The translations under genes were made by a program, and so were the position numbers. Positions 15,001 through 38,001 of a stretch of 49,838 bases of DNA are shown in pieces. Position 1 is the first letter of the stretch; each line of letters opens with the position of its first letter. This DNA is from Clostridia bacterium (lineage in GTDB: Bacteria; Bacillota; Clostridia; Christensenellales; CAG-1252), in assembly GCA_017961365.1 (NCBI GenBank), contig JAGCXI010000026.1, positions 1 to 49,838 on the forward strand, in the 5' to 3' direction. The notes beneath the pieces were generated by a model. It was not told the origin of the DNA. It saw only the letters and a list, made by a program, of their open reading frames with translations, and ran no database searches.

Positions 15001-18000
15001 ACTTTCGTGATCCCGATGTATGTCGGCAAGGAGAATGTCGATGGGACGTACCTGGTGAAATACGTGACGGCGGTCGGCAATGCGACGACGAAGGCCTCCG
15101 TCTTCTCCGGCGGCATGGCGGATCACCTCGTCCTCCTCAAGAATATTACGACCATCGCCCCCGGCGCATTCAGGAATAATACCGCGCTGCAGACGGCGAC
15201 GCTCGGAGACGGCGTCACGGAGATCCCCGAAGAGGCATTCCGCGGCTGTACGAATCTGGGAACGGTCAAGATGTCTGCGTATGTCAAGAAGATCGGCGCC
15301 TATGCCTTTGCGGCGAATAGCTCCTTGAAAGCGCTCCCCGTGGAGGTCTCGGCAGGCACGTCCAAAGTGACGATGATCGGCAAGGGCGCCTTTATGGGCT
15401 GCGCGGCGATCGAGACGATCGAGCTCTGGAATGTCGCAGATGACGATGGCGGTCAGCTGTATATCGGCTCGGAGGCCTTCTCCGGCTGCAACGCCGATTC
15501 CTTCTCGACGCTTTACATCCCGAAATCCGTCGTCTATATCGGCGAAGGCGCCTTCTATAGCACCACGTCGTATATCACGTACGTCCTCTTCGAGAATGAC
15601 GTCTGGGCGAATGTCGATGACGATCTCTGGAGAGAAGCGGAGAATATTCCGTCGGTCGAAGATGAGGAGGAAGAGCCGCAAGGCTTCGACTTCGACGCAT
15701 TGATCGAAGGCACCGCCATCTTTAATCTCTCTCCCGTGGTGACGGAGGGTGAGCATATCAAGATCGATGTGCCGATGAATGCGAATAACGTCATCATCTA
15801 TTTCGAGGCGAAAGATCCCGATATGAATGCTTGGAACCTCTTCACGCCTTACGTTGCCTTTACCTGGGATACGGTCGACGGGTTCTGCGCGATTATTGGC
15901 CTTACGGAGGATGCGGAAGGCTACGTTAAGAATAAGAATATTCCCGAGTCGCAAAAGTTCACGACGGACGAGGAGACCGGCAAGAAGAGGGTGAATATCG
16001 ATTATTATAAGAACGGCACCCTTTATATCCCCGAGTATCGCCTCGGAAATCCTGTCCGCGTCCTCGGTCTTAAACTCGGCGGTGACGGGCTCGGCACGAA
16101 TGACTTCGTCGAGAAGGTGAGCATCCCGAATACCGTGAGGACCATAAATCGCAATGCCTTCAAGGGCTTCTCGGCGCTCACTTCCGTCGTCTTCGGCGCG
16201 GGCAGTGAGATCGAGAGCATCGAATATCGCGCCTTCTACGGCACGAAGATCACTTCGCTTACGATCAATGGCAAGCATGACGTGACCATCGGCGAGGAAG
16301 CCTTCGCCGAGACAAAGCTTACCTCGGTCTCCGTCGATAAGGTGGCAGAGATCGGAAAGAAAGCCTTTGCCGATATCTCGCTTTCTACCTTCACCGCCGA
16401 ATTCGGCAGCGTGGAGACCATCAGGGAAAATGCGTTTAAGGATAGCGCAATGACCGCGCTTACGGTGGAGTGTGGCCTCAAGACTGTGGAGCAGAACGCC
16501 GCGGACGGCTGCACGATGCTTGCCTCCGTGAGCCTTGTCTTCGCCGCCGGCGAGACCTCTTCGATCGACGACAAGACCTCTTCGATCGGCGCATCGGCGT
16601 TTAAAGACGCTACGGCACTTGCCTCGCTCATGATCGAGCTGCAGCCGGGCGCGCATCTCACGATCGGCGCGTCGGCATTCTCCGGCGCCGTCGCCCTCAA
16701 GACCCTTACGATCGCGCTTGGAAATGGCGCCCAGGTGGACGAGATCGGAGATTATGCCTTCTATCAGGCAGGTCTGAACGTCACTTCCGAGACGGCTTAC
16801 TCCATCGACAGGAACGTCGAAAAGATCGGTGATTATGCCTTTGCGGAGAGCAAGATCTCCGCGATCCCGTCCAAGGTGAAAGAGATCGGAGATTATGCCT
16901 TCTATAAGGTCGCCACGCTCTCGGATGTCTCCGTCTTGGAGGTCAATACGGTCGGCAAGGCGGCGTTCGCGGATAGCAGCATCTCGTCCTTTGCCTTCGG
17001 CGCGGCGCTTAAGAGCTTTGCGGAAGATAATGCGGAGGGCGAGGGCAGCTTGCATAACACGCCTTACCTCCGCGAGATCAAGTCCAATTCCACGAGCGGC
17101 GATTATTACGCTGTCAATGACCTCCTCATCAAGAGGAAAGATGCGTCGAATGTGACCGCAAGTGCGGTGGCGATCAAGTTCGCAGAGCTCTCGACGAAAG
17201 GTCATGTCGAAAAGGTCGGCGAGGATCTCGTCGGTCAGCCCTTCGAGGATTATGCGATCACGCGTGTGGCGTACGCCGCCTTCCGCGGAAATAAGAGCTT
17301 CAATGCAGGCGAATTCAAGATCTTGAAAGTCATCGACGATTACGCCTTCTATGGCTGTACGGCATTGCAGTACTTCGGAACGGAGTTCTTCGACGAGGAG
17401 AATGAGATCGGCTTGAAGATCAGCGGTCAGCCCTCCAAGATCGGCGCTTACGCCTTCGCGGGCACGAGCCTTATCCGTGTCACGATCAAGACGGCGAGTA
17501 GCCTCGAGATCGGAGAGAAAGCATTCTTCGGTTATTATGAGGACGCGAACGGCGCTTATAAGTATGAAGCGGGCGAGTACAGCCTGATCTCCGGCGCATA
17601 TAGCGGCACGAGGTATTCTCGCAGCGCCACGCTTGTCGAAGTCTATATCGGCGACGGCTTGAAGAGCATTGCGAAAGACGCATTCGGAAAGTGCTCGAAT
17701 CTTAAGCTCGTGACCATAAATTCCAATGATATGACCATAGCGGCGGGCGCCTTCTCCGGTGCGATCATCTTTATGCCGGACACGGCGGTGAATAAGGGCG
17801 ACATCGAGACGAATCTCGGCAGCAATAATACGCTTGTCTGGTATACGCCGGTGAATTGTCTCAGCATAGACGCCGACGGAAACTTTGTCGGAATCAATAA
17901 GTATTGCACCCTCCATGCGGGTGAGTCCCATGGCGACGTGACCCTCCCGATCTATTATGCCTTCAATAAAAAGATCGCGGGCATCGTGGCGACAGGCGGC

Positions 18001-22282: not shown

Positions 22283-25200
22283 ATGACGCTTGCGAAATGC
22301 TGTAAGAATAAAAAGGGCGTCGCCCTTACATACGCGGTGATGGTGCTGTTTCTCTTAGCCACCGTCATCGTCGCCATTACAGCGCTCGCTTCTTCCTCCG
22401 TCAGCGAGGCGGTCCTGACCGCGTCGGATGACCAGAGCTATTTCTATGCCAAGTCCATCGGGCTCGCCATCAAAGAGCAGTTTAAGGACGGCTATAATAT
22501 CAATTCCATCATTGAGACCTTGGACGCGCAGATCGCGGAGGATGAGTCTTCCCCCTGCGTCACGGGCAAGTATTACGTCGAGGACGATTCGCGCACGGAG
22601 CTTGTGGAAGGCACGGTGCGTATCTCTTATGCGAAAGACAGCGCCGGCAATGGTTATAACGATCATGTGCTCGAGGTCAAGGTCGCTTGCGTTTATAATA
22701 ATTCGCTTTCCATCGTCACGTCGGTCTTCAGCTGTGAGGAAGACGCGGAAGAAGTCATGCCCAAGCTGAAGAATGCTTTCGATAAGTATGACGTGATCCT
22801 GACGAATAAAGACGAAGTCAGCTTCGATTTCGCGGATACCAGCGCCTCCACCCCCATCAACGTCTATGTCTATGTCGGTGAGGACGATACGGTGAAGAAT
22901 TCGCCTTTCTATCTCGGCGTGGATATGAATGGAAACCTGACGACGACGGGCGACACCAAGATCTACGGCGGGACGAAGAGCGCCGAGACGCAGAAGTCCA
23001 TCAAAGGAGACCTTACCGCGTATGGAAATCTTTCGCTGAAGAACGTGAAAGTTACGGGCACGAACGGCATCCATTGCGACGCGAATGTCACCATCAATAA
23101 GGGCAGCTTCGTGACGAATAGCATCTTCGCCCGCGGAGATATCACGCTCAGCGATGAAGAGATTTTGATGCATAATCATATGGTGAATTCCGCAGGGTAT
23201 GTCGAGACCGCCACGGACGGTTCGGCGGACCTTCCCACGGTCAGCACGCAGCGCAAGGCGGTGAATCTCGTCGCGATGGGCAATGTCACGATGGGCGAAT
23301 ATTGTTACATCACGGGCAGCATCTATGCGCGTGGCGACGTCACGATCAAAGGTCACGATATGCTGCATGTCTATAATACTTGGGTGGATGGCAGCGTCTA
23401 TGCGAATGGCGCCGTCACCATCTCGAAAGGCGCCGTCGTGATGGGCGACGTCATCGCCACGGGAAAGGTCACCATTCAGAGCGGCGCGATCGTCTTCGGA
23501 AACGTGCAGTCCAAAGGGGATGTGACGGTGAATGCGGGCGTCGTCGGCGGCAAGGTGGAATGCATCGGCAAGCTGACTTTGAAGACGAATACCACGTATG
23601 GAAATTGGCTCGCGCAGAAAGGTGCCACGCCGCAATACGAGATCCTCTTCGGCGGCATCGGCATCTTCAGAGGATATAATAATGCGCACAGCGCGAATAA
23701 GATCATCCATACTTGCGGCTCTCTCTCGCTCGGAGATACCGACGAATGGGTGAGGATCATCGGCGACATTTACGTGGAGAATTCCAGCGCAAGCGGCAAG
23801 TACACGCCGCTCACTTCGGTCTGGATCCCCTTCGACAGTATTTATCTTTTGAATTCCCGCGCCATTTTCGGCGCCGCAGCGGATCAGACCGTGACGAATG
23901 GTTATCAGAATCAATTCGGGAATCCGCATGTTTATATCCATCGTCTCTGGCAGAATGGAGATCTTTATTACACGTCGGGCGAACATCTCGTCAATATGAA
24001 CGGCGCAAAGCTCGATATCATCCAAGCGGGCGATCAGGGCGCCCCGCGCGACGTCTGCCTGACGAATGGCACGGTCACGACGCAGATCATCGGACGTTGC
24101 GGCGAGCTCAAGATGATGGATATCGCGTATTGCCTCGTCGAAATGAAGCAATACTTGAAAGTCTATGGAGACGGTTCCACGAGCCCCCTCGTCACGAATG
24201 GGATCACGATGCTCCGAAGCGGCTCCCAGCTGAACGTAAATTGCGAGACGAGCGGAAAGGGCAGTCTCACGAATAATGAGGTCGGGCTTGAGATCGGGCA
24301 GTACGTGAATATGCTCGCGGGCTCCCAGGGGAGAGTCGGCTCCGCCTCTACAGCCGCGAGCAAAGGCAAAGTCATCCTCGGCTCCTCCGCCGCGGCGAAT
24401 ACCTATCTTTTCGGAAATTATTACATCCATGCGAAAGAAGTCGAGCTGAATGCCGGCGCGCATCTGCGCGTCCCCAGCGGCTCCGGCACGTCGGCGGCGG
24501 TGATCTATGCGGACGTCGAGACTTTCACCGTGAAGGACACCTCTTCTTTGTCGACGAACCGCACGGCTTCCGTCCTGTATCTCAAAGGAAATCTGGTCCT
24601 GCAAGGAAAGATCTTCTCCGTCTATCATTTCTCGGGGAATCTCACGATGACGGGAAATGGCAGCGTCGCGGGCACGTATTGGAGCAAGTCGAATGGGAAG
24701 CTGCAGTTTAAAGGCACTTTCGGCTCCATCGAGGCGTCGGATGCGGGCTGCACCGTCGAGCTCTCGGGCGCGCTCAACGTCACGAATGATCTTCGCGTGA
24801 ACGGCACGCTCGTCAGCGGTAATTATGATCTCGTGGTCGGGAAAGACCTTTATGTGCGCGCCCTTGCTTCGGGCACGCTGAGCAAAGTGACCGTGAATGG
24901 GAATATGACCATATCCGAGGCGCAGACCTCTTATACGATCGGCGCAGGCTGCGTCGTCGCGGGCACGCTGACTTGTACCGGCTCCGCCATCACGCTTGAT
25001 TCCACGGCAAAGGTGGGCGGCGTGGCGAGCAAGAGCCTCGTCATAAAAGGAAATGCCGTTTTGGGCGGAAATAACGCCAAGAGCAAAGTCACGAACGGCA
25101 TCACGATGAGCGGCGGCACGATGACCGCTTGTAAGGTCCAATGTTATAACTTTACGCAGACGGCGGGCACGCTCTCTTCCGTGGATATGTATGTCGGCGG

Positions 25201-28200
25201 CACGGGAACGGTGATCAATGTCAGCGGCTCTTCGAAAGCCACGGCGGCGCATCTTTACGCGCCGAATGGCGCTTTCTCTTTCTCGGGCGGCTCTTCCGTG
25301 CAGTACACGGGCGGCGAGAATACCCTGCAGGCGAAGACAGGTAGCACGCTGAAAGCTCGCTTCGAAGGCGGCGTCACCGTCACGGGCGGGAATCTTGCGG
25401 TCGGCGCGGCAGGAGAGAGCGGCACGTATAACGTGGGCAGCTCGGGCAAGACCATCTATGCTTCCGGCACGCTGACTTGGCTGGGCGGCGCGCGCAGTCC
25501 TTATGATGCGGATCCTTCCGGCGGCGCGCCCAATATCTCTGCGGGCGGCAATATCACGATAGGCACCTTTAGTTCTTCCGGCGTCCCCTCGGGGGATCCG
25601 ATCAAGGGATATTTTAATTATATCACGTCCTCCTCCGGCAGGGTCTGGGCTTATGTGGAGGCGGTGGTCAAGGGCGCTTACGCTTCGGGCGACGTCACGA
25701 TGAAGGTCTCCAAGAGCTTCGGAAATAAGGTGAATGACAAGAGCGTCGGCATCTATACGACGGGCGGAAATATCAATCTTTACGCTTCCGCGAATACCAT
25801 TCGTTATAAAGGGTACTATATCACGCCCAAGACCTTTACGGTGGCATCCGCGCTCTCGATGACCGCCGCGGTGAAGTGCTCGGACGCTTCCGGATTGAAT
25901 AATATCCGAGAAGAGACGGCTTCCGGTCTCTCGAATCAGAAAGCCATCTTCCTGTCTCTCCAGATCACGGGGTCTTCTTCCTCGCGATTCTCCTTGGAGC
26001 GCAGTCTTGCGAAGGATTCCACGGGCACCACGGGCTCCATCACCCTCGAAAATCGCGGTTTGACCCTTTCTTCCGGCAAGCACGTCGAAGGCATCATCTA
26101 TGTGAACGGCATCTATTATTACGGCACGAGCAGCGTGGACCTTGATTCCGTCGGCGGACTGTATTGTAAGAATACGGAGGTCAACACCGTAAATCTGAAA
26201 GGTGATATCGAGCTTCCGAACGTGACGAGCGTCATCATCGGCAGCTCTATCACGAGCTTGAAGGCGGATAAAGTCGCATCCGTTACTTTGGGACAGAATT
26301 TCCCGGGTTCTTTGAACCTGCCGAATGTCGGCACTCTCACCGTGAATAGCGGCATCACTGTTTCGGGTGCTTTGGAGATCGGCGGCACCCTCGAAAATAA
26401 AGGCACGATCAACGGCGGCGCAAAGTGTAAGAAGTATACGGGCTCCGGCGTCGTGAAAGGAAATCTCATTATCACGGGCTCGGAGCAGAGCGAGATCACG
26501 GGCAACGTCGCGGCGAATATCTATTCTTACGGACCGCTTCTTTTGAAGAACGCGACGAATCTCGGTGCGTCCGGCGGCTATATCTTCAGCAAGAGCAATA
26601 TCGACGCTGAGTACGTTACTTTCCGCAGTGACCTCAGCTATATCATGTCCAATGGCGGGTATCAAAAGTATTCGTACTGTAAGCAGCTCCCGAATGTTCG
26701 CGCGCTTTCCGGCGCCACGTACATACAGTTTATAAATAATACCGATTGTAAAACCACGATCAAGAGCGTGTGGAGCAAGGGCACGTCCATTCAGTTCGGC
26801 ACGAGCACCTCAAGCAATTATCAGACGATAACGGGGGATCTCGAATGGAGCGGCACGATGTCGAGCGGCACGACGCAAGGCATTTATATTCGCTCTAAGA
26901 ATACCGTCATTCAGGGGAATGCGAAGTTCACGGGCACGGGTTACGTCCAGTTCTACGGTCAGTGCGATAAGGACGTCCTCTTCTATAATACTTCCAAAGT
27001 TATTTTAGGTAATTCTTCGTTCCCCGCCCTTGTTAAAGGGAATGTTTACGTCAATACGCAGAGCAATAATACCGCGAGCGTAAAAGTCACGAATTTCGTC
27101 TATAATGCGGGCGAGATCCAGAAGGACCTTTATTATTACGGCTCCGGTCAGAGCGTCACGGTGAATGGCTCCGTGACGGGAATGCTCCGTGCGGATAACG
27201 TGCATCTCACGGTCGGCGGATCTCTCGGTTCTCTCTTGCATACGGCGTCTTCCGCAGGGTATAAGGTGAATCTCGGTTCGCTCTCGAATCGTCCCAAAGT
27301 GAATGGAAGCATCCGCGTGCGCGGAGTCTTGTTTGATAATTCCGAGAATCACGACACTATCAATGTTTACGGAGCTTATTACGGTGACGTGAATAAGATT
27401 TATAAGTACTGCACGGGGATCAAGGTGACGGCGGAAGATTCCGGCGCGAGCACAGGCTGGACTTGGATCTTCGGCGGTCCTTCCGCCGACTATATCAGCG
27501 GCAACGTGGACGTAACGGGCTGGCTCTTCATTTATTCGAATGCCAATGACGCGAAGTTTGAGATCAAGGGGAATATCTATTGCAACCTGCTCCATATCAA
27601 TAATTATTGGTATGTGAACGGCGGTTGGACGAATTATTATCCGATGTCGGGACATAAGAGATTTGATTCGAGCACGCAGATGGTGGATATCGTGAGCGCG
27701 GGGTTTCTCCCCGTGCAGCCGGATTACGAAGCGGCGATGTGGGCGAATCAGAGCACCACGCGTGATCTCGTGACGGTGCGTCAAGTCCATGTCAAGGCGG
27801 GGAATGGCAAGCTCGGCGCGGCGTATTGCGCCAATACCAAGATGCAGCATCTTCGTACGGACGGTCAGATCTGCTTGACGTATTGTTATCTGACGTCCAA
27901 GAATTTCGATCAAACGAAATATAATAACACCGGCGAGCATTGTGGTAATCACTCGAATTCAAATGGAATCTCCGTCAAAAAGAATGCGGACGGGGATTAC
28001 GATGGCTCGATCATCGCCCATAACGCAAGCACCGACGCGGGCTGGAATATGTTCTGGGGCACAAAGACAGTGAGTAATGTCTCCTTGATCTATGGTTTTA
28101 CTTGCACGAACGGCGATGGTAGCCTTGCGGACAAGAAAGGCTGGACGGACTTCGAAGGTTCGGTGAAGGAGAATGTCGGCACGGGCGTCACGGGCAGCGT

Positions 28201-30760
28201 CGCCACCAAGCTCTTCTATTTCGGCGGCGGCCTCGCGATGTATGGATATTCTCGCATCAATTCGGCGCGAAACGGAGATACCGGTGAGTTTAAGGCGGAT
28301 TTGGCGCGTACCATCGTCTGGATCGGGAATGGCGACCTGTATGTCGGCGTCGGATGCGGCGTCGGACATGATAAGACCGATCTCAGCAGAACGCGTGTGT
28401 CTTCTCACCCCGGCGTCTTCGTCTCGAACGGAAATGCCACCATCGACGGTTATGTCACCCTCGATATGATGGTGAAAGGGAATCTGACGGTCACGGCGAA
28501 TGGTGAAGTCTTGGGAAAAGACAGCGGTGGCTCGTCTTATCGGGCGGGCGTCTTCCTCGTCGGCGGAAGCCTCAGTGAGGTCAGCAATCATTTCCGCTTG
28601 AAGCATGCCTATACATCTTCGGCGCTTCCTGCAAGAGCGTATGAGACAAATTGGGGTGGCGATTGCTATACGCCGGACGCCTCCGGATACGTCTCTTATA
28701 TGACAGGGAAATTGGTGAAGATCTCCGGCACGAACGCGGCGAATCTCGCGCAATGTTATAAGCCCAAGAATACGGCGGTCACGGTTTCTTCGCCTTCGGG
28801 CGCGGGATCTTCCACCTCGCCCTTTAAGATGAGCGGACGTTCCGCGGCGGAGAATGCCACGATGAGCACCTCCGTCAGTTCTTATTCCGCGCCGACCGAG
28901 CCTACGCTCTCGGCGGGAGCGGGCACGTCCATCGGCACGGGCACGGCAAGCGTGCCGAAGCTCGCGCTTTCCGGCACGATTGCCCCCGTGGCGGCGGGCG
29001 ATTATAAGGTCGCGGAAGTCACCGTGCCGACGGTCACCGCGGCGGAGACCAATAAGACTTTCTCCATAAAATATTCGATCCCTTGGGCGGAGGTCACCTA
29101 TGGTCAGCCCTCCTTCGCCGAGCGATGGGCGACCGCGGAGGGCGTGGATTACACGACGCTGGCGGAGAGCTGGGAGAAGGGGAAAGTCGCGGTGGGCAGC
29201 GTGAATTATTCCCTCACGCAGCATCTCGACAAGTCGAATAGCTCGCTTTGGGGGCCGCGCGTGATCCCGCAGACCTGGCAGCTGCCTTATGAATATACGA
29301 ATTCTTCCGGCGGGACGACCGAGACGCCCGCAAAGAGAGTCCTCGTGGGCAAGATGATGGACTCCGCAGGCATCAATCTCTCGGACGTCAGCTCGTCCGT
29401 GGCGAACGAAAAAAAGTACGTGACGGAAGATATCTATAATTCCGGGAGCAATTCCTTGAAGAGTTATAATCAAAATACCGTCATCAGCGATAGAAAGAAG
29501 ACGAGCGACACCTCTTACGCGGGGACGAATAAGCTCCTTGATTATATTATGAAGAAATCCACGTCCGGCGTGGACCGTTGCTCCGATCTTTTGGTCTTCG
29601 AGAGCGGCGAATTGCCTTACAGCGCTTTCTATATGTCCGCCACGGATGACTTCACGGTCTGGAGTCGCATCGGCCGCGGACACGTGGGCGAGAAGCATGA
29701 TTGGAAGAAGCTCGGCGTCACGATCTCCAGCTGGGAGTATTTCTATTGGAAGTACATGATGGACGGGAATAGCGACGTCCCGGATCGAGACGACGAAAGC
29801 ACCTTTAAGAATAATTACTTCACGAATTCCAAGAATATCCCGTATTCCGCTTATCACGGGAATTCCGAGAAGAAGATCGCGGGGCAGTATCAAGACGCTT
29901 GGTTTTGGGGATCTGAAGAGCGCAGCACCTATGACGTGAACTGGATCTTCTATGCCTGTAAGGATCCTTCCAATCCCTATGACAGCGCCGCGAAGGACCT
30001 CCACGTCGTCCTGCCGAAGGGCATCGGACTGGAGTTCTTCCGCGATATCGATAATAAGATCCTCGTCATCGGCAGGGGAAGAGTCTTCCTTTATCTGACC
30101 TCGGGCGACACCCTTTATTTCCGCGGCGATATCAAGAGCGATAATAATCCCACGACCTGGGTGGTCGGCGGCTTGACGAATAAGGACAGAAGCGGAAAAT
30201 ATCTCTCTTCGGATAAGCAGTATAAGCGTCCGCAGCTTTATATCATCGGCGCGGGCACGAATATCGACCTCATCGTCCGTGAGCTCCAGCTTTTCGCTTA
30301 TGTCTATATGCCTTTCGGCACGAATGGCAGCTTGTATAATGCTTCTACGGGCAGGTTAAAGTCCTATAATATCTTTAAGAACGCGGAGGGGGGCAAAGCG
30401 AATCCGAATAGCGCCGGGTCTGCCTCTTCCGCCGTCACGGACGTCAAGCGAAATTCTCTGATGTTCGTTTGGGACGCCGCGAAGAGCAAGCGATATATCT
30501 ATGGCAGTATCGTCGTGGATAACTTTAATTTCACGACGGGTTCGGACAAGAATCTGGAGTTTAAGGCGCGCGCGGTGGATCGTTACGGTCCCGACTTCGG
30601 CGATACGAAGATCTATGGCGCGAGCACGTATTCCGGCTCGACGGTGTATTTCAGCACGAATTACGTGGAAGTCTCGCTGACCTCCTTTATGTCCCAGCCG
30701 CCGGGCTTCTCGACGACGATGCTGAACTGGGACTATGTCGGCATAAAGGTGGTGTCGTGA
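22283..30760 (+). CDS. Giant prepilin-like protein with bactofilin-like beta-helix repeats (PilX-type tip adhesin candidate)
   Basis: A 2825-residue protein. The N-terminus is a class III prepilin signal: a basic leader ending K10-K11-G12, a predicted cleavage before V13, and a hydrophobic helix to about residue 38. Position +5 is Tyr17, not Glu, as in PilX- and GspK-type minor pilins that sit at filament tips. After a small globular part (about 40-225) comes a very long region (about 226-2112) of short beta-strand repeats such as 'GDVTI..G..V.GsV.A.G.VTI', like polymer-forming bactofilins and other right-handed beta-helices. A Ser/Thr/Ala/Pro-rich linker (about 2165-2250) leads to a mixed C-terminal domain. 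That domain ends in a segment (about 2575-2815) resembling the C-terminal domain of PilX-like proteins ('AYVYMPFG', 'YGSIVVDNF'). GGAGGTGG precedes the ATG. It stands between pilO and two ordinary prepilins. Function as adhesin or tip protein is inferred. Confidence 0.85.
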   Translation: MTLAKCCKNKKGVALTYAVMVLFLLATVIVAITALASSSVSEAVLTASDDQSYFYAKSIGLAIKEQFKDGYNINSIIETLDAQIAEDESSPCVTGKYYVEDDSRTELVEGTVRISYAKDSAGNGYNDHVLEVKVACVYNNSLSIVTSVFSCEEDAEEVMPKLKNAFDKYDVILTNKDEVSFDFADTSASTPINVYVYVGEDDTVKNSPFYLGVDMNGNLTTTGDTKIYGGTKSAETQKSIKGDLTAYGNLSLKNVKVTGTNGIHCDANVTINKGSFVTNSIFARGDITLSDEEILMHNHMVNSAGYVETATDGSADLPTVSTQRKAVNLVAMGNVTMGEYCYITGSIYARGDVTIKGHDMLHVYNTWVDGSVYANGAVTISKGAVVMGDVIATGKVTIQSGAIVFGNVQSKGDVTVNAGVVGGKVECIGKLTLKTNTTYGNWLAQKGATPQYEILFGGIGIFRGYNNAHSANKIIHTCGSLSLGDTDEWVRIIGDIYVENSSASGKYTPLTSVWIPFDSIYLLNSRAIFGAAADQTVTNGYQNQFGNPHVYIHRLWQNGDLYYTSGEHLVNMNGAKLDIIQAGDQGAPRDVCLTNGTVTTQIIGRCGELKMMDIAYCLVEMKQYLKVYGDGSTSPLVTNGITMLRSGSQLNVNCETSGKGSLTNNEVGLEIGQYVNMLAGSQGRVGSASTAASKGKVILGSSAAANTYLFGNYYIHAKEVELNAGAHLRVPSGSGTSAAVIYADVETFTVKDTSSLSTNRTASVLYLKGNLVLQGKIFSVYHFSGNLTMTGNGSVAGTYWSKSNGKLQFKGTFGSIEASDAGCTVELSGALNVTNDLRVNGTLVSGNYDLVVGKDLYVRALASGTLSKVTVNGNMTISEAQTSYTIGAGCVVAGTLTCTGSAITLDSTAKVGGVASKSLVIKGNAVLGGNNAKSKVTNGITMSGGTMTACKVQCYNFTQTAGTLSSVDMYVGGTGTVINVSGSSKATAAHLYAPNGAFSFSGGSSVQYTGGENTLQAKTGSTLKARFEGGVTVTGGNLAVGAAGESGTYNVGSSGKTIYASGTLTWLGGARSPYDADPSGGAPNISAGGNITIGTFSSSGVPSGDPIKGYFNYITSSSGRVWAYVEAVVKGAYASGDVTMKVSKSFGNKVNDKSVGIYTTGGNINLYASANTIRYKGYYITPKTFTVASALSMTAAVKCSDASGLNNIREETASGLSNQKAIFLSLQITGSSSSRFSLERSLAKDSTGTTGSITLENRGLTLSSGKHVEGIIYVNGIYYYGTSSVDLDSVGGLYCKNTEVNTVNLKGDIELPNVTSVIIGSSITSLKADKVASVTLGQNFPGSLNLPNVGTLTVNSGITVSGALEIGGTLENKGTINGGAKCKKYTGSGVVKGNLIITGSEQSEITGNVAANIYSYGPLLLKNATNLGASGGYIFSKSNIDAEYVTFRSDLSYIMSNGGYQKYSYCKQLPNVRALSGATYIQFINNTDCKTTIKSVWSKGTSIQFGTSTSSNYQTITGDLEWSGTMSSGTTQGIYIRSKNTVIQGNAKFTGTGYVQFYGQCDKDVLFYNTSKVILGNSSFPALVKGNVYVNTQSNNTASVKVTNFVYNAGEIQKDLYYYGSGQSVTVNGSVTGMLRADNVHLTVGGSLGSLLHTASSAGYKVNLGSLSNRPKVNGSIRVRGVLFDNSENHDTINVYGAYYGDVNKIYKYCTGIKVTAEDSGASTGWTWIFGGPSADYISGNVDVTGWLFIYSNANDAKFEIKGNIYCNLLHINNYWYVNGGWTNYYPMSGHKRFDSSTQMVDIVSAGFLPVQPDYEAAMWANQSTTRDLVTVRQVHVKAGNGKLGAAYCANTKMQHLRTDGQICLTYCYLTSKNFDQTKYNNTGEHCGNHSNSNGISVKKNADGDYDGSIIAHNASTDAGWNMFWGTKTVSNVSLIYGFTCTNGDGSLADKKGWTDFEGSVKENVGTGVTGSVATKLFYFGGGLAMYGYSRINSARNGDTGEFKADLARTIVWIGNGDLYVGVGCGVGHDKTDLSRTRVSSHPGVFVSNGNATIDGYVTLDMMVKGNLTVTANGEVLGKDSGGSSYRAGVFLVGGSLSEVSNHFRLKHAYTSSALPARAYETNWGGDCYTPDASGYVSYMTGKLVKISGTNAANLAQCYKPKNTAVTVSSPSGAGSSTSPFKMSGRSAAENATMSTSVSSYSAPTEPTLSAGAGTSIGTGTASVPKLALSGTIAPVAAGDYKVAEVTVPTVTAAETNKTFSIKYSIPWAEVTYGQPSFAERWATAEGVDYTTLAESWEKGKVAVGSVNYSLTQHLDKSNSSLWGPRVIPQTWQLPYEYTNSSGGTTETPAKRVLVGKMMDSAGINLSDVSSSVANEKKYVTEDIYNSGSNSLKSYNQNTVISDRKKTSDTSYAGTNKLLDYIMKKSTSGVDRCSDLLVFESGELPYSAFYMSATDDFTVWSRIGRGHVGEKHDWKKLGVTISSWEYFYWKYMMDGNSDVPDRDDESTFKNNYFTNSKNIPYSAYHGNSEKKIAGQYQDAWFWGSEERSTYDVNWIFYACKDPSNPYDSAAKDLHVVLPKGIGLEFFRDIDNKILVIGRGRVFLYLTSGDTLYFRGDIKSDNNPTTWVVGGLTNKDRSGKYLSSDKQYKRPQLYIIGAGTNIDLIVRELQLFAYVYMPFGTNGSLYNASTGRLKSYNIFKNAEGGKANPNSAGSASSAVTDVKRNSLMFVWDAAKSKRYIYGSIVVDNFNFTTGSDKNLEFKARAVDRYGPDFGDTKIYGASTYSGSTVYFSTNYVEVSLTSFMSQPPGFSTTMLNWDYVGIKVVS
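22960..28620 (+). repeat. Bactofilin-like beta-helix repeat region of the giant pilin
   Basis: Roughly 1890 residues of short G-x-[VLI]-x-[VI] strands with turns rich in Gly, Asn, Ser and Thr. The most regular units lie at 23270-23620, with a period of about 16-18 residues ('G.V...G.VTI..GA.V.GdV'). The pattern is that of a stacked beta-solenoid. Regularity decreases toward the 3' side, where aromatic-rich loops appear. Confidence 0.75.
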
Positions 30761-31133: not shown

Positions 31134-31910
31134 GTGATTTTCAGACGGCTGAGAAAGGGAAAGAAGGGACTCACCTTGGTGGAGATGATCGTGGCGATCG
31201 CAGTGACCGCCATTCTCGCCGTTTGCCTTTCCACGATGCTCGTCCCCGTCGTGAATGTCTATGGCACGAATAAGACCAAGGTGGAGCTCATGGACGCCGT
31301 GTCCTCTCGTTTGAATGATTTCGCGGCGCAGCTCCGCGGCGCGCAAGGCGTCTATCTTGCGGAAGCGGAGGGCTCTTTCTTCGATATCAATACGCAGTCG
31401 CAGTATGACGGCTGCAGGAAGTTTAAGGTCACGCACGCCATTGCGATGGATAATTATTTTGAAAAGAATAGCCCCAAGATCTCCGGCTATCGTTATCCCG
31501 AGATGAAGTGCTTGGATTATTCGAATGTGAGCAAGCCCGAAGTCGTTTATGCCTCGAAATGGGGAGAGAAGCTGATCTCGGACGAATATCAGGAAGCGAA
31601 TAAGCAGATCTATTGTCCGAATGATGGTTCCAATAAACCCGCTTTTTATATGCTCGTCCGCAAGGATGCCGCGGGGAATGCCACTTGCCTCGAGATGCAT
31701 CTCACGATGAAGAAAGGCGACGTGCGCCAGGAGGGGGTCAAGACCATCACCTGCGAGAATCTCGTCATCCAAGGGAAAGTCGTGTATAAAGCTTCCTTCG
31801 TTTGGAATTCCTCTTTGGGTGATTTCGTCCTTACGCCCGCCGAAGTCAGCACGGGGACGAATGAGACGAAGTGGAAAAAATATTGTTCCGTGTGGTTTTC
31901 CAAGCCATGA
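31134..31910 (+). CDS. Type IV prepilin-like protein (PilW/GspJ-type minor pilin)
   Basis: A 258-residue prepilin starting at GTG with GAGGT 6 nt upstream. The leader is basic and ends K10-K11-G12; mature L13 begins the motif LTLVEMIVAIAV, with Glu17 as the +5 residue. The long C-terminal domain (about 220 residues) and the 'LVEMIVA' start resemble PilW/GspJ minor pilins, which form the initiating tip complex with PilV/GspI and PilX/GspK types. That fits its position after the giant PilX-like protein and the small prepilin. Two Cys in the C-terminal half (in 'MKCLDY' and 'IYCPND') could form a disulfide. Its last four bases overlap the preferred start of the prepilin peptidase gene (ATGA). 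Confidence 0.9.
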   Translation: MIFRRLRKGKKGLTLVEMIVAIAVTAILAVCLSTMLVPVVNVYGTNKTKVELMDAVSSRLNDFAAQLRGAQGVYLAEAEGSFFDINTQSQYDGCRKFKVTHAIAMDNYFEKNSPKISGYRYPEMKCLDYSNVSKPEVVYASKWGEKLISDEYQEANKQIYCPNDGSNKPAFYMLVRKDAAGNATCLEMHLTMKKGDVRQEGVKTITCENLVIQGKVVYKASFVWNSSLGDFVLTPAEVSTGTNETKWKKYCSVWFSKP

Positions 31911-32671
31911 GGATCGCTTTTCTTATCCTGTTTCCCATCCTTGCTTTATTTGCGGGTGGGCTTTTATATCGCCTTGCCTATGCTTATCCGAGACAGAGTT
32001 TCGGCGAGCTTCTCCGTCCTTCCTGCCATGCCTGCGGCGTCCGCCTGCCGATGCGTTATTCGATCCCCGTTTTGGGGACGATCCTTTCCGGCGCACGCTG
32101 TCCCGCTTGCAAGGAGAAGAGGGGAGTGGGGAGCCTTCTTTCCGAAGTGATCTTCGCGCTTGCCACCTTCCTTTTATTCTTCTTTTACGACCTGTCTTTC
32201 CTTTTCCTTGTCTATCTCGTCGCGGCGGCGCTTCTCCTTGTCCTCTCCCTTGTGGATCTTGACGTGAAGGAGGTTCCGCATGGGTTTTTGCTCGTCTTGC
32301 TCCTCCTCGGCGTCTTGCTTTTCATCCTCTCTTTCTTCCCGAAAGTCTCTCTCTCCAAGATCCTTTGGTGGGAGCATCTTGTCGGCGCCGTGGCGGTCAG
32401 CGTTCCGCTCTTTATCCTGATGGTGGTCTCGGGTGGGGGCGTCGGCGGCGGAGACGTGAAATTGATGTTCTGTCTTGGCTTGCTTCTCGGTTATAAGCTC
32501 ATTCTTTTGAGCTTCCTCTTCGGCATCGTTCTTGCGGCGATCTTCTCCGTCATTCTCATCGTCATTTACGGGAAAAACGGGAAGTACGCCCTCCCTCTCG
32601 TCCCCTTTCTTTCCGTCGGAGCTTTCATCGCGATGACAGTGGGGGAGACTTTGCTTTCGCTCTTCTTCTGA
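31907..32671 (+). CDS. pilD: Prepilin peptidase / N-methyltransferase (type IV leader peptidase)
   Basis: A polytopic membrane aspartyl protease that cleaves prepilin leaders after Gly; many members also N-methylate the new N-terminus. The 254-residue form contains the Zn-binding four-Cys cytoplasmic loop (CHAC...CPAC, about residues 40-72). It also has both catalytic aspartates: Asp117 in 'VDLDVKEVP' and Asp183 in 'GGGDVKLM', the family's G-x-G-D-x-K-L motif. Around eight hydrophobic segments are visible. I chose the ATG at 31907, which overlaps the preceding stop as ATGA. A GTG at 31871 would add 12 residues and overlap the previous gene by 40 bp. Neither has a clear ribosome binding site, which suggests translational coupling. 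Its substrates are the prepilins encoded on both sides. Confidence 0.93.
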   Translation: MRIAFLILFPILALFAGGLLYRLAYAYPRQSFGELLRPSCHACGVRLPMRYSIPVLGTILSGARCPACKEKRGVGSLLSEVIFALATFLLFFFYDLSFLFLVYLVAAALLLVLSLVDLDVKEVPHGFLLVLLLLGVLLFILSFFPKVSLSKILWWEHLVGAVAVSVPLFILMVVSGGGVGGGDVKLMFCLGLLLGYKLILLSFLFGIVLAAIFSVILIVIYGKNGKYALPLVPFLSVGAFIAMTVGETLLSLFF

Positions 32672-32736: not shown

Positions 32737-32765
32737 TTGACTTCATTTTAGCATTGTGTTATAAT
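32737..32765 (+). promoter_or_regulatory. Strong housekeeping-type promoter for pilB
   Basis: TTGACT at 32737-32742, a 17-nt spacer, and TATAAT at 32760-32765, with an extended -10 TG at 32757-32758. The predicted transcript starts near 32772, leaving a leader of about 30 nt with a GGAGGT ribosome binding site before the ATG at 32802. pilB is thus likely expressed independently of the upstream pil operon. Confidence 0.8.
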
Positions 32766-32801: not shown

Positions 32802-34475
32802 ATGAGCAAACTCACTTTAGGACAGATCTTACTTCAGAAAGGCTTTGTGAAGCCTCAGGATCTCAAGCAGGCGCGCGAGCTTCAGATCGCGAATCCGTCG
32901 AAAAGTTTGGCGGAGATCCTGATTTCCCTCAATGTTACCAGCGAGGTGAATATTTTGTCTGCGCTTTCCGATCGAATGAATGTGCCTCTCTTGGAAGGGG
33001 CGATCTTCATCACGGATACCGACATCATCAAGCTCGTCCCCGAGAAGGTGGCGAGGAAGCATAATATCATTCCTTATAAGGTGGAGAAGAATAAGCTCAT
33101 CGTCGCGATGCGTGATCCGAGCAATATGGACGCGATCGAGGATATCAAGATGGCTTCGGGCATGGACGTCGGCTTCGTGCTTGCCACCGTGCCTTCCATC
33201 ACGGACGCGATCGAAAAGTATTATGCGAATGTCACCGCGCAGAAGATGGCGGACGATATGTCGCAGGAGGAGCAGGAGAATAATGCGAATGCCCTCAATG
33301 AGATGGACGACAGGGTGGATAGCGCCCCGATCGTCAAGATGCTCAATACGCTCATTCAGCAGGCTTTCGTCACCCACGCGAGTGATATTCATATCGAGCC
33401 TTTCCGTGATACGGTCATCATTCGTATGCGTATCGACGGCGCCTTGCAGGAATATATGCGCATCTCGCCCTCCGCACATAAGAATCTCATCACGAGGATC
33501 AAGATCCTCTCGAATATGAATATCGCCGAGAAGCGTATCCCGCTCGACGGCAGATTCGATTATACCTTCGAGGGCGAGCTCATCGATATCCGTGTGTCCA
33601 CGCTTCCCACGACTTACGGCGAGAAAGCGGTGCTTCGTCTTCTCGGCACGGCGATGGGCGCCGATATCAAGCTGACGGATCTCGGCATGCTTCCCGAGAA
33701 TGCGGAGAAATTCATGCGCGTTTGCGAAGCGCCGAACGGCGTGGTGCTGGTCACGGGTCCTACGGGAAGCGGTAAATCCACCACCCTTTACACCGTCTTG
33801 CAGGATCTGAATAAGCCGACGGTGAATGTCACCACCATCGAGGACCCTGTCGAAAAGAAGGTCTTCGGGATCAATCAGGTCCAGACCAATCACAAAGCGG
33901 GACTGGATTTCGCCTCCGCCCTTCGTTCCATCCTTCGTCAGGACCCCGATATCGTTATGATCGGTGAGATCCGTGATAACGAGACGGCGGACATCGCGAT
34001 GCGCGCCGCTATCACGGGTCACTTGGTGCTCTCCACGTTGCATACGAATGACGCGGTCTCCACGGTCGCTCGTTTGATCGATATGGAAGTGCCGCCTTAT
34101 CTCGTCGCCGCGGCGTTGAACGGCGTCTTGGCGCAGCGTCTCGTGCGTAAGCTCTGCCCGAAGTGTAAGACCAAGGTGGAAGTGACGCAGGCGCAGAGAA
34201 ATATTCTGAAAGATCCCACGCTTACGGAGTGCTACGGTCCGGTCGGTTGCCCGAACTGCAGCTTCACGGGCTATAAGGGCAGGACCTCTATCCACGAGGT
34301 CTTGACCGTGGACACTGGTCTTCGCGAGCTCATCACGAAGAACGCCACCACCGAGGAGCTCCGCGCTTATGCGAAGAAGGAGGGGATGATCTTCATGGAC
34401 GACAATGTCCGCATCAAGATCAAAGAAGGCGTCACGAGCATCGACGAATATATGAGGACGATCTATACGATCTGA
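32802..34475 (+). CDS. pilB: Type IV pilus assembly ATPase (PilB/GspE family)
   Basis: A 557-residue hexameric secretion ATPase that powers pilin extraction from the membrane and polymerisation through PilC. Domains in order: an N-terminal MshEN/T2SSE_N domain (about 1-150), a linker, the N2 domain ('SDIHIEP', about 190-290), and the RecA-like core with Walker A GPTGSGKS at 319-326. An Asp box, a Walker B region ('PDIVMIGEIRD') and a His box ('TGHLVLSTLHTND') follow, then the zinc-binding four-Cys motif C452-x2-C455...C483-x2-C486 found in PilB/GspE but not PilT. The ATG at 32802 is chosen because GGAGGT lies just upstream; an in-frame TTG at 32754 lies inside the promoter. The gene has its own promoter and a hairpin terminator at its 3' end. 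Confidence 0.97.
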   Translation: MSKLTLGQILLQKGFVKPQDLKQARELQIANPSKSLAEILISLNVTSEVNILSALSDRMNVPLLEGAIFITDTDIIKLVPEKVARKHNIIPYKVEKNKLIVAMRDPSNMDAIEDIKMASGMDVGFVLATVPSITDAIEKYYANVTAQKMADDMSQEEQENNANALNEMDDRVDSAPIVKMLNTLIQQAFVTHASDIHIEPFRDTVIIRMRIDGALQEYMRISPSAHKNLITRIKILSNMNIAEKRIPLDGRFDYTFEGELIDIRVSTLPTTYGEKAVLRLLGTAMGADIKLTDLGMLPENAEKFMRVCEAPNGVVLVTGPTGSGKSTTLYTVLQDLNKPTVNVTTIEDPVEKKVFGINQVQTNHKAGLDFASALRSILRQDPDIVMIGEIRDNETADIAMRAAITGHLVLSTLHTNDAVSTVARLIDMEVPPYLVAAALNGVLAQRLVRKLCPKCKTKVEVTQAQRNILKDPTLTECYGPVGCPNCSFTGYKGRTSIHEVLTVDTGLRELITKNATTEELRAYAKKEGMIFMDDNVRIKIKEGVTSIDEYMRTIYTI

Positions 34476-34500
34476 CCTATTTTCCGAAAAGGCAAAAGAA

Positions 34501-34532
34501 AAGTCCCTTGCGAAGCCGCGAGGGACTTTTTT
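34501..34532. terminator. Bidirectional intrinsic terminator between pilB and the convergent prepilin gene
   Basis: AAGTCCCT (34501-34508) pairs with AGGGACTT (34521-34528), with a partly paired inner stem, and is followed by a run of T on the + strand. On the - strand the same stem is followed by TTTTCTTTT, so it can end both the pilB transcript and the convergent prepilin transcript. Confidence 0.85.
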
Positions 34533-34551
34533 CCTGCGCTCTTTTCGAGGG

Positions 34552-34995
34552 TTATATCGAATTCTTCGGTCCGGTGACGGTGTTTCCGTCCGTGGAGACG
34601 TAATACTTTCCGTTGTAATTATATACGATCTTCACGACGGCGTATTTCGAATTCAGATTTCCGCTGTTGACGGAGTATTGGATGTAGATCTTCCCTTTGG
34701 AGACGGAGGAAGGCGCTTTTGTGCTGAGCGTTTGGAGCTTATCGCCCGCAAGCGTTTGCAGCATCGAGGTGGAAGGCGCGCCGCCGAATCCGGAATTGAG
34801 TGTATAGAAATAATTCTCCGTGGATTTCCAGTAAGAAGTGATCGCGGTCTGCGCGCTTTTTTTCTGCGTGGCGGTCTTGACGCTGGACATAGAGATCGCG
34901 GCGATCGTGGCAAAGATGCCGAGGATCGCCACAACGACGATGAGCTCCACGAGCGTGAAGCCTTTTTTGAGTTTTGCAAAGAAAGTTTTTCTCAT
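34552..34995 (-). CDS. Type IV prepilin (major-pilin candidate, GspG/ComGC-like)
   Basis: A 147-residue prepilin read leftwards. The basic leader ends K10-K11-G12 and the motif G-FTLVELIVVVAILGIFATIAA follows, with Glu17 as +5. A pilin helix and a C-terminal domain with Tyr-rich beta strands complete it. The compact size and classical 'FTLVELIVVVAILGI' start fit a major pilin or GspG/ComGC-like subunit. The start is the ATG whose complement is at 34993-34995. A consensus promoter lies so close upstream that the predicted transcript begins at, or one base before, this ATG, and no ribosome binding site is visible. In-frame upstream ATGs (complement at 35002-35004, overlapping the -10 box, and at 35023-35025, in the spacer next to the -35 box) would not be on that transcript. 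The gene ends at the shared terminator. Confidence 0.9.
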   Translation of the reverse strand: MRKTFFAKLKKGFTLVELIVVVAILGIFATIAAISMSSVKTATQKKSAQTAITSYWKSTENYFYTLNSGFGGAPSTSMLQTLAGDKLQTLSTKAPSSVSKGKIYIQYSVNSGNLNSKYAVVKIVYNYNGKYYVSTDGNTVTGPKNSI

Positions 34996-35002
34996 CAAAA
35001 TC

Positions 35003-35031
35003 ATTGTATCACAGAAGTCTTTCATTGTCAA
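35003..35031 (-). promoter_or_regulatory. Promoter of the leftward prepilin gene, leaderless configuration
   Basis: Read on the - strand: TTGACA (complement of 35026-35031), 17-nt spacer, TACAAT (complement of 35003-35008). Seven bases separate the -10 box from the ATG, so transcription should start at the G just before the ATG or at its A. The -35 box lies inside the left arm of the palindrome at 35025-35050. Confidence 0.75.
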
Positions 35032-35050
35032 TATATTATAATATTGACAA
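35025..35050. promoter_or_regulatory. Perfect palindrome shared by the divergent prepilin promoters
   Basis: TTGTCAATAT (35025-35034) and its exact reverse complement ATATTGACAA (35041-35050) flank the six bases ATTATA. Each arm contains one outward-facing -35 box (TTGACA), so the palindrome places the two divergent promoters symmetrically. It could also be bound by a dimeric regulator controlling both prepilins. Confidence 0.7.
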
Positions 35051-35073
35051 GACGGACAGGGAAATGGTACTAT
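35044..35073 (+). promoter_or_regulatory. Promoter of the rightward prepilin gene, leaderless configuration
   Basis: TTGACA (35044-35049), 18-nt spacer, TACTAT (35068-35073). The predicted +1 is the A of the ATG at 35080. A TATAAT at 35074-35079 abuts the ATG; used as a -10 it would start transcription inside the coding region, so TACTAT is preferred. No ribosome binding site is visible at proper spacing. Confidence 0.65.
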
Positions 35074-35079
35074 TATAAT

Positions 35080-35640
35080 ATGAGGAAATTTTCTCGTTTG
35101 TTTTTGAAAGGAAAGAGGGGTTTTACCCTCGTGGAAATCATCGTTGTCGTGGCGCTGATGGCGATGATCTCTTTGCTTGCCGTCCCCAGCCTTCGCGGCG
35201 TCACCACGCGCGCGCAGAAAGATGCGTATAATTCTTATTTCCTCCAAGGGAAGGACGACATGCGTAATTTTATGAATCTTATGAATATGGGCGAGACGGT
35301 TTTCCCCGTCACCTCCTCCAATTATAAAGTGACGGAGGTGGATCTCACGACGGCGGAAGGTCTGACCAAGGCGATGAATTATGCGAATCGCCAGACCGCG
35401 TATCAGTATTATATCATTGGATTCACAGAGTCGAATGCCGCCACGAATCCCACGTCGAAGATACAAGCGGCGGAACTCAAGACTGACGTCATCGTCCCCG
35501 TCTTCGTGAAGAACGGCGACGTGTATGAGTCGCGGGGAATGTGGTATTACAGCGCCGAGAAGGGCACGGTCGTGATGACCTTCAAGATAAAGAATTTGAC
35601 GATGTCGGACGGCTATTCGTCATTGAAATCGACGAAATGA
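35080..35640 (+). CDS. Type IV prepilin (second major or minor pilin)
   Basis: A 186-residue prepilin. The basic leader ends K12-R13-G14 and the mature start FTLVEIIVVVALMAM follows, with Glu19 as +5. A globular domain of about 140 residues contains several Met, Asn and Tyr and lacks Cys, so no disulfide loop is possible. The ATG at 35080 is the only start giving a normal short basic leader; there is no ribosome binding site and the predicted transcript begins at the ATG. It is divergent from the other prepilin, and followed after 12 bp by the transglutaminase-like lipoprotein gene, probably in one transcript. Confidence 0.9.
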   Translation: MRKFSRLFLKGKRGFTLVEIIVVVALMAMISLLAVPSLRGVTTRAQKDAYNSYFLQGKDDMRNFMNLMNMGETVFPVTSSNYKVTEVDLTTAEGLTKAMNYANRQTAYQYYIIGFTESNAATNPTSKIQAAELKTDVIVPVFVKNGDVYESRGMWYYSAEKGTVVMTFKIKNLTMSDGYSSLKSTK

Positions 35641-35652
35641 TAAGGAGCGAGT

Positions 35653-38001
35653 ATGATGCGCAAGGAAGGAAAAAGGGTAGATAGAAAGGTCGCTTTGATC
35701 GGGATGACGCTTTTGCTGATATGCGCAATGGTGCTCGTCTTTACGGCTTGTAGCTTATTTACTTCCGCTTTTGGGGTGGATTTCGGAAAAGGATCTCAAT
35801 ATGCTTCGACTTCGGAGGGCGAAAGCTCGTCTTCCGAGCCTTCTTCCGACGGAGGATCTTCTTCGTCGTCCTCTTCGTCTTCCTCGTCGCAAGGAGGCGG
35901 AAGTTCATCCTCTCTTCCCTCGAAAGTGGAAGACCTCGAGGAGGGCGGCGGTTCGACGGACGCTCCGATCGAAGAGCCCAAGGTGGACGAGCCGGATCCC
36001 GTTTCCGCGAATGTGACGATCTCTTCTTCTTTGATCTATGACAAGACGGAAGCAGGGGATTTCATCATCGACGCCACCCATACGGGCAAGACTTTTTATG
36101 GCGTGATGGGCGCGGGGCTGAAAGAGAGCGATTGGAGCGTGCGCAGTCAGACGACGGGGGCGAGCTCCGTCCTTTTCCGCGAAGCGTATATGCAGTCGCT
36201 TGCGGTGGGGAGCTATGATTTCTCTTATAGCGTTCGCAGTGCGAGCGGCACGTATTACGATACATTCGCTTTTGTCGTGACGAATAGCGATCCTCGTCCC
36301 TCCGATCTGAAGATCGATTATGACGTCGATTTCCCGAATGTTTATGTGACATGGCATTGTGATTGCAATAATAAGCACACCGTCAAGATCGACGACGATA
36401 CGCAGACGGTGGATGCGGGCGTGCGTTCCGTCCGTTGGGGGAGTTGGAGCTCCGCTGTCAAAAAGAACGTGCATTACGCGCAGGTCAAATGCGTCGGAAG
36501 AGAGCCCATCGAGATGGTGACGAAGGTGCAGCCGCTCTCCTCCACTTATGAATATCTGACCTCCACGATCTCCTTTATGGGGAAGGTGGCGGATCGTTAT
36601 ATCGAGGATTTCGACGAAATGGTCTTTGCTTTCCAGTCCATCGTGTATGAGGGGAGCGATACGTCTCTTTCCGTCGCGCTCGCCGCGGACGTCAAGAATT
36701 CTTTGAATAGTAACGAGGCTTTGAATGAGTATCTCCAAAAGGTGAATGACGAGCTTGTGATCCCTTGGAATCTAAATGTGGGAATGGCGCTTTCCGACAA
36801 TATCGCGACGATCCGCGTCTCCGACGTTGCAGGCGGGAACGGCATTTCTTCGGGATATCGGGAAGAGACGGCGTATAGCAGCGCGAATGTTGCTTCGCAT
36901 TATCCCGCGGCGAGTTCCGCTCGTCATTTTGCCATCGACGGGGACTCCGTGAAGGAAACGAATGTCCGCAATGTCAAGGAGCTTCTTGCCGCTGTCGAGG
37001 CAGGTTACAGACCCACGTCCTCGAATGCGGAAGTGACCGCTCTTTATAATAAAGCGCGCGCGATCTGCTCCCTTTATATCACGGATGAGATGTCCGAAGT
37101 GGAGAAGCTTCACGTGATCTATGATTATCTCGCGGGCGAGATCGTTTATGACAAGTCTGCCCTCGCTTTGTATAATATGATCGCGGAGATCAAGACGGCT
37201 TTCGGCACGGCGACGGGGTATTCCATCGACGCCTGTCCCGCGGAGACGGACTGCCTCCTTTCCGACGCTTGGAAGACGAGCATCGAGAATAAGCTGAGCG
37301 AAGCGAGCGCGCCTTTCTCCACGGAGATGAAGACGGCTGTGCGCACGGCGATGGACGGCGAGACCTCGATGAAGCGTTTTTATAAAGCGGTGAATACCGA
37401 TTATCTCCAAAAGCTGAAGTCCTTCTCTCTCGAGGGGGTTCTCGATGATAAGACCGCCGTTTGCGAAGGCATCTCTTATGCCTTTATGTTGCTTGCGAGG
37501 ATCGAAGGGATCGAATGTTATCAGATCTCGGGAGATGCCGTGAATAATGGGAGCCATGTCGCCCACGCTTGGAATAAAGTCGTGCTCGCGGACGGAAAAT
37601 GTTATTGCATCGACGCCACTTGGGGGAATGTGACCCTCAATGAGACGCGCTTCGTGACGCATCGTTATTTCCTCTTGGACGAGGCGAGCTTCTGCGCTAC
37701 CCACCAAGAAGAGGTGGATTCGGAGGCGTGCGTCGAGCGGCTTGCCACGGGCAGTTATGATTATTATGCGCATGAAAGCACTTCCTTCGGGCATACGCTT
37801 TCCGTCTCGAATGACTCGGAATTCACCCACGCTTTGCAGTATTATCACAATGCGGGTAGTAATTATATCGAGGTGCGTTTTGTCTCCGGTTATTCGCCCG
37901 ATAATATCCAATTTACGGTGCGCGCCGTGTACGGATCGTATAGTTCTCTCTACAGCATGTCCCTTGAGAACGGCGTTTATTGCGCTTTCGTTAAGCAATG
38001 A
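35653..38001 (+). CDS. Secreted transglutaminase-like lipoprotein
   Basis: A 782-residue exported protein. A basic N-terminus and hydrophobic segment end in 'VFTAC', where Cys33 is the probable lipidation site (Phe at -3 is not classical). A Ser/Gly/Glu low-complexity linker (about 54-95) then spans the cell wall. Beta-rich, possibly Ig-like, sequence fills about 120-260. The C-terminal half carries a transglutaminase-like core with the full Cys-His-Asp triad: Cys604 in 'AVCEG', His638 in 'AHAWN', Asp654 in 'DATWG'. Members of this superfamily act as proteases, peptidoglycan or isopeptide enzymes, or crosslinkers; the substrate here is unknown. The sequence between the signal and the triad ('VIYDYLAGEIVYD') matches the helical lead-in of these proteins. 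AAGGAG precedes the ATG. The gene sits 12 bp after a prepilin gene and overlaps the next gene by 4 bp. Confidence 0.85.
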   Translation: MMRKEGKRVDRKVALIGMTLLLICAMVLVFTACSLFTSAFGVDFGKGSQYASTSEGESSSSEPSSDGGSSSSSSSSSSSQGGGSSSSLPSKVEDLEEGGGSTDAPIEEPKVDEPDPVSANVTISSSLIYDKTEAGDFIIDATHTGKTFYGVMGAGLKESDWSVRSQTTGASSVLFREAYMQSLAVGSYDFSYSVRSASGTYYDTFAFVVTNSDPRPSDLKIDYDVDFPNVYVTWHCDCNNKHTVKIDDDTQTVDAGVRSVRWGSWSSAVKKNVHYAQVKCVGREPIEMVTKVQPLSSTYEYLTSTISFMGKVADRYIEDFDEMVFAFQSIVYEGSDTSLSVALAADVKNSLNSNEALNEYLQKVNDELVIPWNLNVGMALSDNIATIRVSDVAGGNGISSGYREETAYSSANVASHYPAASSARHFAIDGDSVKETNVRNVKELLAAVEAGYRPTSSNAEVTALYNKARAICSLYITDEMSEVEKLHVIYDYLAGEIVYDKSALALYNMIAEIKTAFGTATGYSIDACPAETDCLLSDAWKTSIENKLSEASAPFSTEMKTAVRTAMDGETSMKRFYKAVNTDYLQKLKSFSLEGVLDDKTAVCEGISYAFMLLARIEGIECYQISGDAVNNGSHVAHAWNKVVLADGKCYCIDATWGNVTLNETRFVTHRYFLLDEASFCATHQEEVDSEACVERLATGSYDYYAHESTSFGHTLSVSNDSEFTHALQYYHNAGSNYIEVRFVSGYSPDNIQFTVRAVYGSYSSLYSMSLENGVYCAFVKQ

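Follow-up and report, generated by a model that had tools for sequence, protein, structure and literature searches.

A conserved pair of divergent prepilin genes with predicted leaderless promoters in uncultured Christensenellales

Two divergent prepilin genes in an uncultured gut lineage of the Christensenellales are, very probably, expressed from truly leaderless, back-to-back sigma-A promoters, which would set the expression of these two accessory prepilins apart from that of the pilus motor. The 84 nt that separate the two start codons hold two complete promoters pointing outward, and 12 of the 13 genomes in the genus (one genome per species) carry the divergent pair. The window, i.e., the whole stretch of 49,838 nt analyzed here, corresponds to a single contig from an assembly of 1.4 Mb with 88% completeness.

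The pilus locus

Both proteins match the Pfam N-terminal methylation motif PF07963 (E=1.8e-8 for the left prepilin and 3.2e-6 for the right), and both have the short leader and G/FTLVE processing site by which type IV prepilins are recognized. A prepilin peptidase and an assembly ATPase are encoded near the pair, as in type IV pilus loci, together with a T2SSF protein and a PilM-like protein, the latter with a score below Pfam's cut-off. The genes and the repeat to which we refer below are the following:

31871-32671: prepilin peptidase (Peptidase_A24 by Pfam)
32802-34475, plus strand: pilB-type ATPase gene (T2SSE/MshEN), with its own promoter (TTGACT-17-TATAAT, ending at 32765), a leader of about 30 nt and the Shine-Dalgarno (SD) site GGAGGT
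34500-34529, no strand: inverted repeat AAAGTCCCT...AGGGACTTT between pilB and the left prepilin gene, with A- and T-runs on its flanks
34552-34995, minus strand: left prepilin gene, 147 aa, Pfam N_methyl, leader and processing site MRKTFFAKLKKG/FTLVE
35080-35640, plus strand: right prepilin gene, 186 aa, Pfam N_methyl, leader and processing site MRKFSRLFLKGKRG/FTLVE
35653-38001, plus strand: transglutaminase-domain lipoprotein-like gene with SD AAGGAG, 12 nt downstream of the right prepilin gene

Structure models of the left and right prepilins (mean pLDDT 85 and 83) each combine an N-terminal helix with a beta-rich head, and fold searches with both models returned no PDB match at E 0.001. 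The inverted repeat, which we read directly from the sequence because its loop is too long for the repeat scan to report, is a probable two-way terminator. On the opposite side of the pair, the transglutaminase-domain gene and the right prepilin gene probably form one operon, and the lipoprotein-like product may be a partner of that pilin.

Several other features of the region were recorded. It includes two giant ORFs, at 34-18120 (6028 aa) and 22283-30760 (2825 aa), the second of which has a PilX-like hydrophobic N terminus (GVALTYAVMVLFLLATVIVAITALA). In the sister genus, a large lipoprotein-like gene also comes after the right-prepilin orthologue of G095 (L165). An RNA element or riboswitch between the prepilin genes was considered and rejected, as positions 34000-36000 have no Rfam match.

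Two promoters between two start codons

The intergenic region contains the following elements:

35003-35008, minus strand: left -10 box, TACAAT, in TGATACAAT, with a 17-nt spacer, a TG ahead of it (extended -10, TGn) and 7 nt to the ATG
35026-35031, minus strand: left -35 box, TTGACA
35025-35050, no strand: palindrome TTGTCAATATATTATAATATTGACAA, which holds both -35 boxes
35044-35049, plus strand: right -35 box, TTGACA
35068-35073, plus strand: right -10 box, TACTAT, in TGGTACTAT, with an 18-nt spacer, a TG ahead of it (extended -10, TGn) and 6 nt to the ATG

These are the two promoters, with their spacers, that the initial annotation had described. The sequence between -10 box and ATG is GATTTTG leftward (ATG at 34995) and TATAAT rightward (ATG at 35080), so that the first T of the -10 box lies at -13 and -12, respectively, relative to the start codon. 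Taking a distance of 7 nt from the final base of the -10 box, we place the predicted +1 on the A of the right ATG and on the base just before the left ATG, in agreement with the earlier prediction that it would fall on or one base before each ATG; as this placement follows consensus spacing, actual initiation may be 1 to 3 nt off. Dinucleotide shuffles of the upstream DNA matched the observed score at the proper distance in only 6 of 20000 trials for the right promoter and in none of 20000 for the left. Neither prepilin start in the window has an SD site, as had been noted, and an SD match of at least 5 nt is present at 11 of the 14 other starts checked in the window; the claim that nearly all neighbors have one was thus too strong, and "most" is the better word.

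Conservation across the genus

The right prepilin gene was found in the same 12 genomes, and the left gene is divergent to it in every case. A comparison of the intergenic region across relatives had been proposed as a check on leaderless initiation; run on these 12 species, it shows that the promoter-to-ATG spacing is kept, which supports leaderless starts. The gap between -10 box and ATG is exactly 6 nt for the right gene in all 12 species and 6 or 7 nt for the left gene, i.e., 6-7 nt at 24 of 24 promoters. Both TTGACA boxes and both TGn motifs are invariant in all 12 by pairwise comparison, and pairwise identity is 80 to 84% in the -10 boxes, 43 to 45% in the promoter spacers and 43 to 46% in the first codons. 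Prepilin identity to the window's proteins is as low as 29%. Shared ancestry, rather than independent events, accounts for part of this conservation. A contig search recovered only two close relatives (Christensenella sp. UBA4247 and UBA3217), while the other matches share mainly the common pilin N terminus.

The base that precedes the start codon varies with the gap: it is a pyrimidine at all 18 pilin promoters with a 6-nt gap and a purine at all six with a 7-nt gap. This is the pattern expected if transcription starts at a pyrimidine(-1)/purine(+1) initiator, and because the preceding base is a pyrimidine, the A of the ATG would be the natural +1 at the 6-nt gap. In the relatives, the -10 box occupies the place where an SD site would sit. 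Altogether, the predicted leaderless start of both prepilin genes is well supported, by its conservation in 12 species and by the genome-wide peak at the same spacing that is described below.

The palindromic core

The -35 boxes are joined in a palindrome whose commonest form in the genus is TTGTCAATATA-G-TATATTGACAA. Its core spans 23 to 33 bp and is AT-rich, and the distance between the -35 boxes is 9 bp in eight species, 12 bp in three and 19 bp in one. The two back-to-back -35 boxes and the common AT-rich core explain most of the palindrome, and the core is possibly a candidate region for alpha-CTD binding.

It is tempting to see in this palindrome an operator for a dimeric regulator of both genes, in which case the leaderless layout would be a by-product of packing two promoters around it. 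The palindrome is near perfect in every species, its core is richer in AT and less variable than the sequence that precedes other promoters in these genomes, and the 8 nt upstream of each -35 box are 75 to 78% identical, compared with 43 to 45% in the promoter spacers. However, two back-to-back TATTGACA boxes alone make up most of the palindrome, the distance between the -35 boxes is variable, and no regulator gene was recognized beside the pair among the genes examined. We therefore consider the operator reading unlikely. A role as the operator of a regulon was rejected separately: in every genome of the genus that carries the palindrome, exact and relaxed searches match it at the prepilin locus alone, and one copy per genome means that there is no palindrome regulon.

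Start codons and initiation modes of related genes

Could the transcripts instead begin further upstream, with normal leaders, and the proteins start at a longer leftward frame (ATG at 35023-35025) or downstream of the annotated starts? Judged from the window by itself, the leftward reading frame does stay open upstream and contains that ATG, which the initial annotation had named as the alternative that would tell against leaderless initiation. But in G012, the closest relative, this ATG has become ATA, and several other species have an in-frame stop just a few codons before the leaderless ATG; stops of this kind rule out a longer start in many species. Furthermore, no candidate start has an SD site, and in several genomes the annotated ATG is the sole usable start. 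Upstream transcription with a normal leader is thus very unlikely, and we retain the leaderless reading of both genes.

Two genes serve as natural controls. The adjacent pilB, 2.2 kb from the start of the left prepilin gene, has a similar type of promoter but a leader of about 30 nt and a GGAGG motif, both in the window and in relatives; in one of 10 genomes its promoter is not recognizable and the SD site is present. A third prepilin gene, located elsewhere in the genome (G000:C72 and its orthologues), has a GGAGG SD site in nearly all genus copies examined, an extra copy in G005 being without one. Both of these are SD-led, so leaderlessness extends neither to the whole locus nor to prepilins as a group.

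Beyond the genus, the left prepilin gene is predicted to be leaderless in all six genomes of the sister genus, with a gap of 6-7 nt. The sister-genus right prepilin has a 3-nt leader in one genome and an SD-led GTG start in another, which counts against strict leaderlessness there. In a third genus of the family, the left prepilin gene has a leader with GAGGTGA and is SD-led, and prepilins of other families in the order mostly have SD sites. The divergent arrangement of two predicted leaderless genes thus characterizes this genus, and leaderlessness of the left gene goes further back. In the sister-genus genomes represented by G248:C16, G095:C47 and G028:C23 (L218, L226 and L222), the gene opposite the leaderless left prepilin gene is another one, a short gene whose product has a hydrophobic N terminus, and no second leaderless promoter is evident in the gap between them.

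A genome-wide class of predicted leaderless genes

We measured the distance from strong promoters (at least 10 of 12 consensus bases) to the ATG in sampled DNA, comprising 368 kb of G000 (including the window), 400 kb of G002, 375 kb of G028 and 200 kb each of G045 and G013. In G000, 11 of 258 genes lie at 6-7 nt, compared with 1.8 per equal bin elsewhere, and in G002, 14 of 261 do, compared with 1.1; these counts are lower bounds, because the gene caller misses the window's own pair, whose longest open frames begin too far upstream. The sister genus has a weaker peak (5 of 239 genes at 6-7 nt and 1.3 per equal bin elsewhere), and two other families, for which samples were smaller, have no strong promoters at this distance (0 each). 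A shuffle test in G002 predicted 0.15 such cases, and 15 were observed. With a strict pattern applied to 13 genomes, about 128 matches have a gap of 6-7 nt, 49 one of 9-10 nt and 25 one of 3-4 nt; the prepilin pairs supply 24 of the 128, and a pyrimidine precedes the ATG in 74 of the 79 strict 6-nt matches. That the promoter-ATG spacing is a chance outcome of short, AT-rich intergenic DNA is hardly credible: such DNA often carries TATAAT-like sequences and some strict matches elsewhere open no gene, but shuffles almost never attain the score, the distance is kept in 12 species, and the genome-wide peak is sharp at 6-7 nt.

By these promoter patterns, predicted leaderless genes are an established minority class in the genus, with a strong leaderless promoter on about 4-5% of sampled genes, and the prepilin pair is one case of a putative leaderless class common to the genus and its sister genus. 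Recurrent members include genes for a CDP-alcohol phosphatidyltransferase, a cytidylyltransferase-like (coaD-type) protein, a tRNA-editing-domain protein, a biotin ligase and a large lipoprotein. Leaderless signals have been reported in 56 of 209 Firmicutes genomes, at a mean of 4.2% in those genomes (PMC3160421), and about 15 leaderless genes are known in C. difficile (PMC7438776). The initial annotation had called such a pair unusual in Bacillota. Given these reports and the share found here, the claim of rarity is only partly right, and what is unusual is a conserved divergent pair with fused -35 regions.

Other promoter features were also recorded. In 12 of 13 genomes (G000:C70:1847-1885 and its counterparts in 11 others of the genus, loci L181, L187, L192 and L256), a leaderless promoter with a conserved GC-rich spacer around CGCGCGTGTAGTA precedes a gene for a very large lipoprotein-like product (2130 aa in G000), the first 500 aa of which have no Pfam match. 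Leaderless promoters of CDP-alcohol phosphatidyltransferase (pgsA-type) genes, near position 1501 in L182, L190, L191 and L199, share a spacer of the type TATAAATTTAGTTATAAAATCTA, which may represent a regulator site that extends over the -10 box. In six genus genomes, the -10 box of one promoter is overlain by a recurrent palindrome of the type GAAGTTATTAAAATAACTTC (G002:C12:19591, G003:C70:3602, G004:C98:4067, G006:C28:2903, G008:C15:4507 and G011:C14:7791), and it looks like an operator.

A model for prepilin expression

In the model that we favor, near-consensus sigma-A promoters with an extended -10 would start transcription at, or one base before, each prepilin ATG, which would yield mRNAs with a 5'-terminal AUG and no leader, whose translation would follow the leaderless, SD-independent pathway. 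To the right, transcription would probably continue into the SD-led transglutaminase lipoprotein gene, while leftward transcription would stop at the hairpin before pilB. Since the -35 boxes are joined in the palindromic core, the promoters, the start codons and both genes make up one compact control unit of about 80-90 bp, which would operate separately from the SD-led promoter of the pilB machine. The initial annotation had suggested that pilin synthesis may be tuned separately from the machine, and pilB's own SD-led promoter is consistent with such putative tuning. We infer, in addition, an independent dosage of the two prepilins.

The predicted start points are 80 to 84 bp apart (91 in one species), close enough for two polymerases to crowd, which makes interference a testable but unproven idea. 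The two leaderless promoters might form an interference module in which polymerases compete or cooperate on the common core and so fix the prepilin ratio, or the choice of prepilin per cell, with neither a protein regulator nor an mRNA leader; we hold this extension of the model to be doubtful.

The uncultured Christensenellales family joins the Bacillota lineages with a leaderless gene class. The prepilin pair offers a compact, conserved test case (two genes, one region of about 90 bp, 12 species) in which leaderless initiation, interference between divergent promoters and pilin dosage can be studied together, with the SD-led pilB and third prepilin at hand for comparison. Within the family, two genera have a leaderless version of one prepilin gene and a third genus has an SD-led one, so that a switch between initiation modes can also be traced at an orthologous gene.

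Comparison with known systems

A literature search of titles and abstracts found no work tying leaderless transcripts to pilins or type IV pili, and one of titles, abstracts and term counts found none tying them to Christensenella pili. The pair resembles the bacterial leaderless (TA-led) genes of Zheng et al. 2011 (PMC3160421), in which, as here, the -10 box (TANNNT) starts about 12 bp upstream of the start codon, no SD site is present, and a TG precedes the -10 box in low-GC Firmicutes; the share of such genes here is also near the Firmicutes mean in that study. However, the Firmicutes leaderless genes described there are from Lactobacillales and Mycoplasma rather than Christensenellales, and the pair differs from them in retaining the full TTGACA -35 box and in having two promoters fused back to back.

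The "-10 region adjacent to ORF" promoters of Deinococcus-Thermus (PMC12340547) likewise have the -10 region at a fixed, short distance from the ORF, and there the spacing matters for expression. Those promoters are described as common in their phylum and are enhanced by an added -35 region, whereas in the Christensenellales genus a consensus -35 is already present and the genes form a minority class. Finally, the locus resembles other type IV pilus gene clusters in bringing together a pilB-type ATPase, a T2SSF protein, a prepilin peptidase and N_methyl prepilins, but differs from them in that two of its prepilins are placed on divergent, predicted leaderless promoters.
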